Shown piece after piece: positions 18,025 to 25,136 of a stretch of 32,661 bases of DNA. Each line of letters starts with the position of its first letter. Within the stretch, counting starts at the first letter, position 1. The notes beneath the pieces were generated by a model, which was given only the letters and a program-made list of their open reading frames with translations, ran no database searches and was not told the DNA's origin. The DNA comes from Chitinophagaceae bacterium (GTDB lineage: Bacteria > Bacteroidota > Bacteroidia > Chitinophagales > Chitinophagaceae), in the NCBI GenBank assembly GCA_017882215.1, contig JADGPX010000004.1:1-32661 (forward strand), read 5' to 3'. The position numbers and the translations under genes are program-made.

Positions 18025-20148
18025 TTAATTAAATTTTGGATTATTAACAATTTGATTAATAATTGATGGTATATTATCTACGGGAGATTGACAGGTATAG
18101 TTGCGACATAAATAAATTAATGGTTTAGTAGAAACACTTTTTTGGGCTAACAATGGGTATTCATCCTCCTGAGGATTGTTGGTACATTGAAGCACTTTAT
18201 TTGGAATGAAATGGGTGATTAATTCATCTCTTAAATTTTCAAATCCATTGCCGCAAATGGCTATTTCATTTATACCGGCAAATATATCAATAAGCAAACA
18301 AGCCCAGTTACCAAAAGAAGTTGGGTATTTAATTATTAATTCTGATAAGTTATTTAAAAATCCGGCAGCTTTTTGTTTCCATGTTGTGTTATCTAAAATT
18401 ACAGAAAGATAAAAAAGATTACCAGCCATAACGGAATTTCCTGAAGGCACAGCGCCATCATAAATTTCTTTTTTCCGTACAATAACATCATTTTGTTTTT
18501 TGCCTGAATAATAAAAAAAATCTTCTTCCGAAGCAGTAAAATTTTCAAAAACATATTCTGTTAACGAGCGGGCATACTCTATATATTTATTATCAGATGT
18601 TATTTCCTGCAGAGAAATGCAAGCCTCTATCAAACATGCATACTCATCTAAAAAGGCAGGGTATTTTGCCATCCCTTCTTTATATGTATGATACAATTCA
18701 AAATCATTATCATTTACTTTAAAATTGGAAAATAAAAAATTAAAATTTTCGATAGCCATTTCTTTATAGCGGCTTATATCCAATGCTGCGGCAGCTTTAC
18801 ACAAAGTGGTTATCATTAAAGCATTCCATCCAAGTAATATTTTATCATCGGTAAGTGGGCGAATTCTTTTGTTCCTGATTTTTAAAAGTTTCTCTTCTGA
18901 AGATTTTAGTTGTTGTTCAGCTTTTCCTTCATCTAAATTTTTTTGTCTGGCAAAATCATGTAACGGTGTAAGTACCCTCAAAATGTTTTTATGTTCCTCC
19001 TTCTCCAAAGGAGTCCTTTTGGACATAGGAGTCCTTTCGGACCAATTACCATTTGGTGTAACATCATAATATTCACAAAACAAAACTGCATCATTACCCA
19101 AAATCTCATTTATCTCTTCATAACTCCATACATAATATTTACCCTCCTCTCCTTCGCTGTCTGCATCAAGTGCAGAATAGAATCCTCCATTTTCATGCAT
19201 CAATTGTTTTTCAACAAAATCAATTGTTTGTTCTATTGTTTTTTTATAAGATGCATTTGGGGTTATTTGGTAAGCATCACTTAATGTGCGGATCAGTAGC
19301 GCATTATCATACAACATTTTTTCAAAGTGAGGAGCCAGCCATTCAGCATCTGTCGAATACCTTGCAAACCCTCCTCCTATCTGATCATAAATACCGCCTT
19401 GTATCATTTTATCCAGGCTAAGGCATGCCTGATTTAATGCCTCTTCATTTTTTGTATAATGGTGATAGCGCAACAGGTAGTTGATGGTAAAAGTTTGCGG
19501 AAATTTTGGAGCATTGCCAAAACCACCCCATTTTTTATCAGCCTGCTTCATTATGTTTTCAAAAATTTCATCAACTTGTTGCTTTGTGAAAATTTCCCCG
19601 GGCAGATCTATAGATAAATTTTTTATTTGTGTATTTATATTAGAGCGACCAATGTGTTGTGTAAGTTCTTCTGCCTGCGCTTCTACCTCTTGCCTTTTTT
19701 CTTTGAATAATTTAGAAACGCCTTGTAAAACTTCTTTCCACGAAGCCCTGTTAAAAGCCTTTTGCGGAGGAAAATATGTTCCGCCATAAAATGGTTTTCT
19801 ATCTGGCGTAAGAAAAACATTTAATGGCCAGCCTCCGCTACCAGTCATAGTTTGCACTGCACCCATATAAATATGATCAAGATCAGGCCGCTCTTCCCTG
19901 TCAATTTTTATATTGATGAAATTATCATTCATCAGCTTTGCCGTTTCTTCATCTTCAAAACTCTCGTGTTCCATTACATGACACCAATGGCAGGCTGAAT
20001 AACCAATGCTTACAAGGATGGGTTTATCTTCTTCTTTTGCTTTTTGCAATGCTTTATCTCCCCAGGGATACCAGTTTACAGGATTATGTGCATGTTGTAA
20101 AAGATAAGGGCTTGATTCATCAGCAAGTTTATTGGTAAATTTTGGCAT
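18025..20148 (-). CDS. Thioredoxin domain-containing protein (DUF255 / YyaL / SSP411-like)
   Basis: [63 protein letters not shown]. Confidence 0.95.
18999..19043. repeat. Multi-palindromic in-frame insertion with 18-nt tandem duplication inside the DUF255 gene
   Basis: CTCC-AAA-GGAG, GTCC-TTTT-GGAC and GTCC-TTTC-GGAC hairpins. AGGAGTCCTTTTGGACAT / AGGAGTCCTTTCGGACCA repeat at period 18. Encodes [16 protein letters not shown]. Confidence 0.7.
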
Positions 20149-23751: not shown

Positions 23752-23940
23752 ATGGAAAGTGTTTTAATAACTCCGAGGGATAAAAATGAATTGAATCTGA
23801 TTAAAACTTTATTGGAAAAAATGAATATTTCTAAAAAAAATTTATCTGATACTGAAAAGGAGGATTGGGCTTTGCTTAAATTAATGCTTCAGGCAGACAG
23901 AAATAATTTAGTTTTAGAGAAAGAAATATTTAAACTTTAA
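23752..23940 (+). CDS. Small antitoxin-like protein without an adjacent toxin
   Basis: 62 aa, MESVLITPRDKNELNLIKTLLEKMNISKKNLSDTEKEDWALLKLMLQADRNNLVLEKEIFKL. The pattern resembles small Bacteroidota antitoxin-like proteins. Confidence 0.55.
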   Translation: MESVLITPRDKNELNLIKTLLEKMNISKKNLSDTEKEDWALLKLMLQADRNNLVLEKEIFKL

Positions 23941-25078
23941 TTTCTAAAAAAAATAGATCTGCAGCAATTCCATCTGCAAATAATTTCCCTTCTTTAGTTA
24001 GAATAATTTTCTCATCTTCAATTTTTAATTTTGAATTGATCTCATACTTCCTGCTTGCAGCTTGCACTTTACAGCATTTCTCTTCTCCAAATTTTTCTTT
24101 TACAAAACTCAAATCCAATCCTTCCAACGTTCTCAAAGAAGTCATAATATATTCATTCAGTTTTTGCACCTCAGAAAGTTTTTCTTCCTCATAAGGAATT
24201 TTATTCTTTTGCAATGATTGAATATAGAGAGCATTGTTACTCACATTCCACCGCCGAAAATTTCCATCAAATGAATGCGCTGATGGACCAATGCCAATGT
24301 AAGATTTACGCTGCCAATAGCTACTGTTATGTTTGCTTCTGTAACCAGGCTTTGCAAAATTCGAGATCTCATAATGCTCATATCCTGCATCCTGAAGCCA
24401 ACTTGTTAATAATAAAAATTGAGCTGCCTGTTTTTCCGGATCAACATCTTCTTTCTTCTTTAATTTGATCATTTTCTGCAAGGCAGTATTGGGTTCTACA
24501 GTTAATGCATAACAGGAGACATGAGGCACATTAAGATCAATTATAGTTTGAACATTTTTTTTCCAATCATCATCAGATAAAGTTGGAGTGCCATAAATAA
24601 GATCAACAGAATAATTTTGAAAACCTGCGTCTTTAACTAACTGAATGCATCGTAACGCCTGTTCTGCATTGTGTGCCCTGTTCATCCAATCAAGATCTTC
24701 CTGTTTAAAAGATTGAACACCTATACTGAAACGGTTTATTCCAATTGATTTCCATTCGGCTAATTTTATTTCATTGATGTCATCCGGATTTGCCTCCAAA
24801 GTAATTTCTGCATCTTCTGCTACCTGAAAATGTTGATGAGCCGTATCCAACAATTTCTTTATTTCATTAACCGTTAATATACTTGGTGTACCTCCGCCAA
24901 AATAAATAGTGTCAGCCCCACCTAAATCCTCCCCTTTAGGGAGGACTTTTGTGAGCTTCATTTCATTAATCATTGCATCGATCATTTCATCCTTTTGCTT
25001 TAATGAAGTAGAAAAATGAAAATTGCAATAATAACAAGCCTGTTTGCAAAAAGGAATATGGAAATAGATACCAGACAA
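23930..25078 (-). CDS. hemW: Radical SAM family heme chaperone HemW (coproporphyrinogen III oxidase-like)
   Basis: GIYFHIPFCKQACYYCNFHFS, DTIYFGGGTPSIL, EANPDD, GINRFSIGVQSF, SVDLIYGTPT. Confidence 0.95.
   Translation of the reverse strand: MSGIYFHIPFCKQACYYCNFHFSTSLKQKDEMIDAMINEMKLTKVLPKGEDLGGADTIYFGGGTPSILTVNEIKKLLDTAHQHFQVAEDAEITLEANPDDINEIKLAEWKSIGINRFSIGVQSFKQEDLDWMNRAHNAEQALRCIQLVKDAGFQNYSVDLIYGTPTLSDDDWKKNVQTIIDLNVPHVSCYALTVEPNTALQKMIKLKKKEDVDPEKQAAQFLLLTSWLQDAGYEHYEISNFAKPGYRSKHNSSYWQRKSYIGIGPSAHSFDGNFRRWNVSNNALYIQSLQKNKIPYEEEKLSEVQKLNEYIMTSLRTLEGLDLSFVKEKFGEEKCCKVQAASRKYEINSKLKIEDEKIILTKEGKLFADGIAADLFFLEIKV
24915..24950. repeat. Palindromic in-frame insertion in hemW
   Basis: GCCCCACCTAAATCCTCCCCTTTAGGGAGGACTTTT with TCCTCCC-CTTTA-GGGAGGA stem. 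Encodes KVLPKGEDLGGA just before the conserved DTIYFGGGTPS. Confidence 0.7.
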
Positions 25079-25095: not shown

Positions 25096-25111
25096 ACCGA
25101 TAGCTGTCGGT
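25096..25111. repeat. 16-nt near-perfect palindrome ACCGATAGCTGTCGGT
   Basis: 7 Watson-Crick pairs plus one G-T pair across 8 positions; intergenic between hemW and the decayed OMP gene. Confidence 0.6.
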
Positions 25112-25136
25112 GATTATAATTTAGATTTGAACATTA

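Follow-up and report, generated by a model that had tools for sequence, protein, structure and literature searches.

An in-frame palindrome in hemW of a Chitinophagaceae bacterium is one copy of a triplex-type repeat that also brackets DUF559 domains embedded in conserved enzymes of Bacteroidota

The DNA analysed here, referred to as the window, is a stretch of 32,661 nucleotides from a Chitinophagaceae bacterium (assembly GCA_017882215.1, contig JADGPX010000004.1, positions 1 to 32,661 of the forward strand). One of its minus-strand genes, with its start side at 25078 and its end side at 23930, is clearly a hemW by TIGR00539 and contains the palindrome TCCTCCCCTTTAGGGAGGA at 24927-24945. A first-pass annotation of the window had placed an in-frame palindrome in this gene just before the DTIYFGGGTPS motif; this was confirmed, and the exact repeat unit was found to occupy 24914-24949. 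The coding strand of the unit reads AAAGTCCTCCCTAAAGGGGAGGATTTAGGTGGGGCT and is translated directly before DTIYFGGGTPS, the last base of the unit being part of a GCT codon. The features of the locus are the following:

23930..25078, minus strand: hemW (radical SAM heme chaperone), the host gene; TIGR00539 E=1.6e-84, with Radical_SAM and HemN_C domains
24914..24949, minus strand: in-frame palindromic unit of 36 nt, or 12 codons, translated as KVLPKGEDLGGA; a right-end-type triplex element of subfamily E
24938..24945, minus strand: 5' pyrimidine arm TCCTCCCT of the unit, which pairs with the purine arm
24927..24934, minus strand: 3' purine arm GGGGAGGA of the unit; hairpin in the DNA fold, -7.5 kcal/mol, z -2.2
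24916..24923, minus strand: third-strand tail AGGTGGGG of the unit, a mirror image of the purine arm

Among hairpins with a perfect stem of at least 7, the one in hemW was the GC-richest inside any identified conserved gene. Another palindrome, ACCGATAGCTGTCGGT, lies at window positions 25097-25112, immediately upstream of the hemW start.

A search with the 33-nt pattern AAGTYYYYYYNNNNNRRRRRRATTTAGRDDRGG, allowing at most 1 mismatch, returned at least 24 copies in the window's own genome and 0 copies with a reversed-pattern control, so that the hemW palindrome is not unique. The same search returned 35 copies in genome G010, 16 in G011 and 9 in G008; the remaining members of the genus have few copies or lack them. 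Strict matches were present in 21 of the 396 sampled Bacteroidota genomes, scattered across several families and numbering up to 27 copies; among named contigs, the nearest come from Chitinophagales and Ferruginibacter drafts. Taken alone, the hemW copy is a mere 7-bp stem with a z of -2.2, and might be read as ordinary coincidence or as an mRNA hairpin kept for hemW regulation; such a reading is already refuted for the family by 24 copies in unrelated places, in both orientations, with a fixed frame and a mirror tail, and we regard it as very improbable. A further inverted repeat of the window, AAAGGAGTCCTTTTGGACATAGGAGTCCTTT at 19007-19037, lies inside a DUF255/thioredoxin-domain gene and had been counted as a second palindrome of the same kind, but it has a different sequence, occurs once in the genome and is unrelated to the hemW repeat. 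What stands of the first-pass annotation is therefore an inserted in-frame palindrome that belongs to a genome-repeated family and has empty sites in relatives, without the link to DUF255; it missed the mirror-repeat (triplex) architecture, the reading frame that stays constant over dozens of genes, and the link to in-frame DUF559 endonuclease cassettes.

To place the insert in HemW, 30 HemW proteins were compared. Only the closest relative (82-83% identical) shares the insert, decayed to KILPAGQDLERA, so the insert is not ancestral; it dates from the common ancestor of two close species, unless it was gained twice. In the two relatives that follow (78% and 74% identical), HemW is 5 residues shorter at this position, and these represent empty sites in a comparison of species. 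HemW had been thought to run directly into the motif; relatives in fact have a variable loop there, and the net excess is only +5 residues against the nearest empty relatives and about +3 against the family consensus. Because the gain is 3-5 residues and not 12, loop residues were also lost, and the unit took the place of a portion of a variable loop instead of just lengthening it by 12 residues. The AlphaFold model of HemW shows the insert as coil, preceded by helix 26-42 and followed by strand 55-62, and residues 47-51 have a pLDDT below 50 (mean 92); the insert thus falls in a low-confidence loop that leads from helix 1 to strand 2. In a radical-SAM barrel, helix-to-strand loops are on the side opposite the cluster, which makes tolerance of the insert by HemW plausible, and the insert may well be neutral for the enzyme.

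The repeat unit has the form AAG-(8 Y)-loop-(8 R)-TTT-(8 R), with a short loop and a purine-rich tail of 8 nt that is the mirror, and not the complement, of the purine arm. At least 7 of the 8 stem pairs are kept at 152 of 157 anchored sites, and all three arms change together across subfamilies, as in TCCTCTCC/GGAGAGGA/AGGTGAGG and TCTCCCCC/GGGGGAGA/AGAGGGGG. In a three-way match test on 57 distinct combinations, the tail matched its own arm at 5.35 of 6 free positions, compared to 4.00 +/- 0.15 for shuffled tails; none of 2000 shuffles reached the observed value, although this is not a strict probability because related copies are not independent. The copies had been collected with a pattern that demands purine-rich arms, and the tail shuffle keeps composition. 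In the main subfamilies, as in the hemW unit itself, the sole departure from a perfect mirror is a T opposite A, which is permitted in purine-motif triplexes. The element therefore has the pyrimidine arm, complementary purine arm and mirror purine tail of a class II intrastrand triplex.

The consensus 5' flank of the element is CTTCRAAAG or GCGTTAGCAAG. Non-coding copies (e.g., L061, L108, L119 and L130) carry the 5' flank TTTGTGCGTTAGC where coding copies carry CTTCRA, and this difference suggests two element forms or a longer unit. At L039, on contig 118 of the window's own genome, a reversed palindrome of the left type adjoins a right-type element, back to back and without an intervening DUF559, which resembles an internally deleted cassette.

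The same design is known from the E. coli TM motif, CCCTCTCCC-GGGAGAGGG-TTA-GGGTGAGGG, a class II intrastrand triplex for which folding was shown in vitro but not footprinted in vivo, and which is always intergenic (PMC4666352). The TM_ECO or PIT repeats (Hoyne, Maher; Holder et al. 2015, PMC4666352) share the order of Y arm, loop, R arm, short linker and mirror R tail, they too have T opposite A in GGxTGAGG, and inverted pairs also occur in E. coli. By analogy, the element described here may fold as a triplex in vivo. Dissimilar from the E. coli repeats, which are always intergenic and unlinked to mobile elements, it is often translated in frame within conserved genes and brackets a nuclease.

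In-frame use was examined in 50 copies that lie in ORFs of at least 200 aa. The forward frame KVxxxGxDLxxA was used by 38 of the 50 and the reverse frame APSKSPPxGETx by 9; two other frames are often stop-free, yet one forward and one reverse frame dominate. The forward-frame share has a binomial p of ~5e-12 if copies are independent, although copies in orthologous genes are not fully so. Host genes in the window's own genome and its relatives, named by NCBIfam and Pfam, include argB, leuD, aroA, nuoB, nuoD, nadE, methylmalonyl-CoA mutase, tyrA, murC, purH, truA, metG, leuS, coaX, nadB, uvrA and cca; the aroA of G010 carries two copies in a single gene. Some copies close to the N terminus (leuC, nuoB, tyrA and an ABC protein) may lie upstream of the true start.

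Besides hemW, empty sites were found in relatives for leuD, argB, uvrA and an alpha-2-macroglobulin-like gene. The cleanest is argB, which is polymorphic within one genus: the empty site reads KKRPVK-EIDYG and the filled site KKRPII-KVSPTGGDLEGA-TIDYG, a net difference of exactly +36 nt. In two families, elements of different subfamilies occupy the argB and leuD loops, indicating recurrent permissive sites. The argB loop behaves as a hot spot: in relatives of G137 (L380, L383, L384 and L386) the same position is taken up by a 14-residue insert of unrelated sequence, TKTYGxExGPMAGAV. At one cca loop the element is reversed in the window's genome (L129) and forward in three relatives (L153, L193 and L216). 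A second palindrome of 21 nt, CCTGCCTRCCGGACAGGCAGG (LPTGQAG/LPAGQAG), is found in the linker of the triplex element in the cca of G011 (L216) and the argB of G456 (L393); these insertions, in two unrelated genes and genomes, are clean, keep the frame and show no visible target duplication. With regard to MITEs, which have terminal inverted repeats and a target-site duplication, inverted ends were seen in DUF559 cassettes and in back-to-back pairs, and no target duplication is visible in argB when empty sites from other species are used.

The LeuRS gene of G137 that carries the palindrome encodes an extra DUF559-like domain before it. A search of 35 genomes with PF04480 showed many DUF559 domains inside ORFs of ~400 to 1,350 codons. 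By Pfam, DUF559 splits chorismate synthase (AroC) and the MetH activation domain in two, and lies between two AMP-binding domains, between the B12-binding and MeaB domains of IcmF, and within LeuRS; argB, hisF and trpA have N-terminal DUF559 fusions. The window's own genome encodes four DUF559 domains, in leuS, icmF and aroC and one free-standing. On the 5' side of embedded DUF559 domains a triplex palindrome was present in reverse orientation at 15 of 31 and forward at 2 of 31, and on the 3' side forward at 19 of 31 and reverse at 2 of 31. Both sides had correctly inverted triplex ends at 14 of 31; for control windows the figure was 1.8%. Perfect GC-rich hairpins occurred on at least one side of 23 of 31, compared to 4% of control windows. 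About a third of the embedded domains, including the N-terminal argB and hisF fusions and both metH copies, are without a detectable triplex at their ends.

Between the hemW unit and the right end of the G137 LeuRS cassette, the only differences are 2 bases of the loop, and the right ends of other cassettes are those of solo subfamilies A, C and D. One IcmF site is occupied by DUF559 and the palindrome in G319 and G271, and by the palindrome alone in G010 and G011. Within one genus, LeuRS reads PPLARAEGW-cassette-YELSTMPGW with the cassette and PPLARAENWTPKEGGHYELSTMPGW without it. In a tree of 44 DUF559 domains, strong clustering by host site was observed; the LeuRS copy of G043 grouped with aroC copies (100/98), and the LeuRS copies of G137 and G195 with IcmF copies (95/94), and three separate arrivals are needed at one LeuRS site, an indirect hint that the empty site may be cleaved specifically. 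Across genomes, the element and DUF559 were correlated with a Spearman coefficient of 0.39 in a hand-picked set; several genomes have DUF559 without the strict pattern, and G166 has 6 copies of the element with no DUF559 over threshold.

At least 95% of 30 embedded copies retain the residues of the nuclease motif (T..E, RRQH, DF, E.DG..H), and the DUF559 profile matches the 'Mobile intron protein' 3r3p (E=4e-7) and the endonuclease-like 3hrl. PDB 3r3p is the EDxHD homing endonuclease I-Bth0305I, and DUF559 resembles this protein and the Vsr family both in the profile match to the 3r3p chain and in occupying conserved coding sites of conserved genes. Catalytic-fold homology and a conserved nuclease motif thus place it with EDxHD/Vsr-like enzymes, and the embedded domains are predicted to be active nucleases. 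Known EDxHD enzymes are found in introns, in inteins or free-standing; here the domain is translated within the host enzyme and has triplex palindromes at its ends. A Pfam search of 10 proteins for a Hint splicing domain around DUF559, as in an intein, found only DUF559 and host domains, which makes splicing of DUF559 from the host protein unlikely.

The association with DUF559 bears on two other accounts of how the palindromes spread. They could be RPE- or REP-like palindromes mobilised by an agent other than DUF559, such as a Y1 REP-associated transposase, with DUF559 using the same permissive loops or arriving later; the element of G166, present without DUF559, is consistent with this, as are the Y1_Tnp genes found in 13 of 14 genomes tested, and in-frame REP/RPE insertions are known for Rickettsia (PMC3733652) and O. 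terrae (PMC10969869). However, the element occurred at only 1 of 30 Y1_Tnp loci, ~0.95 kb from the gene, and palindromes near Y1_Tnp genes were about as frequent as in the background (3 of 30 per side). DUF559 cassettes, in contrast, have inverted triplexes in the correct orientation at their ends. The Y1 transposase (RAYT) is therefore not supported as a partner, and we consider this account unlikely. Alternatively, spread could be passive and need no dedicated enzyme, if abundant palindromes form foldback single strands that are then copied through template switching or break repair. The short unit, the argB site without a target duplication, the 21-nt palindrome set cleanly inside the element linker twice, and the orientation at the cca loop, which differs between the window's own genome and G010, would fit such a process, but it leaves the inverted bracketing of DUF559 and the conserved nuclease residues unexplained, and appears quite improbable.

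The known kinds nearest to the hemW family are RPE-like coding palindromes, TM/PIT triplex repeats and EDxHD endonucleases. Like RPEs and intragenic GTAG/CGTC REPs (PMC3733652, PMC10969869), the element is a palindromic repeat that has inserted in frame into a wide range of unrelated conserved genes and is missing from the corresponding sites of relatives; RPEs differ in length (~150 bp) and lineage and are not known to have a triplex tail or a DUF559 cassette, and the GTAG/CGTC tag is absent from the element here. REP/RAYT systems likewise combine a nuclease-type gene that has matching palindromes with scattered solo palindromes; here DUF559 takes the place of the Y1 transposase, whose genes are not flanked by the element, the location is in frame, and there is no GTAG (or CGTC) end tag. 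In the open-access literature, no report was found of in-frame palindromes in Bacteroidetes or of palindrome-flanked DUF559.

We therefore favor, as a somewhat probable explanation, that the hemW palindrome is a solo terminal repeat, either a non-autonomous copy or a deletion scar, of a family of in-frame, apparently non-splicing mobile DUF559 cassettes of Bacteroidota. The full cassette would consist of a DUF559 (Vsr/EDxHD-like) endonuclease domain with class II intrastrand-triplex palindromes in inverted orientation on its two sides, and would be read through as part of the host protein with no splicing domain. DUF559 would be the mobiliser, and mobility would probably be nuclease-driven, by a break in the target or by processing of a folded single-stranded end, with copying as the next step. 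Survival would be limited to insertions that preserve the frame and land in surface loops; the 36-nt end is stop-free in the K-V-x-x-x-G-x-D-L-x-x-A frame and encodes a Gly/Asp/Pro-rich, loop-like peptide, and so could be tolerated in conserved enzymes such as HemW. The computations establish the repeat, its architecture and frame, the empty sites and insertion polymorphism, the inverted bracketing of DUF559 and its separate arrivals at one gene; the mobiliser role of DUF559, triplex folding in the cell and harmlessness to HemW are inferences.

The full cassette itself has a fair chance of being a new kind of element. Whether it is a new type in the wider sense, one in which a nuclease domain moves, in frame and without splicing, to surface loops of conserved enzymes, uses triplex-folding palindromes as its ends and leaves 36-nt solo ends as a fixed 12-residue loop in proteins such as HemW, is in our judgement evenly balanced. 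We know of no origin or function for the triplex-forming PIT/TM repeats of bacteria, and, to our knowledge, protein-coding palindromes (RPEs) have no known mobiliser. If the explanation is true, these two old puzzles would meet, with triplex repeats being the ends of nuclease cassettes and their solo copies being protein loops, and the family would provide a natural, testable case in which mobile DNA adds domains and loops to conserved enzymes and no splicing takes place.
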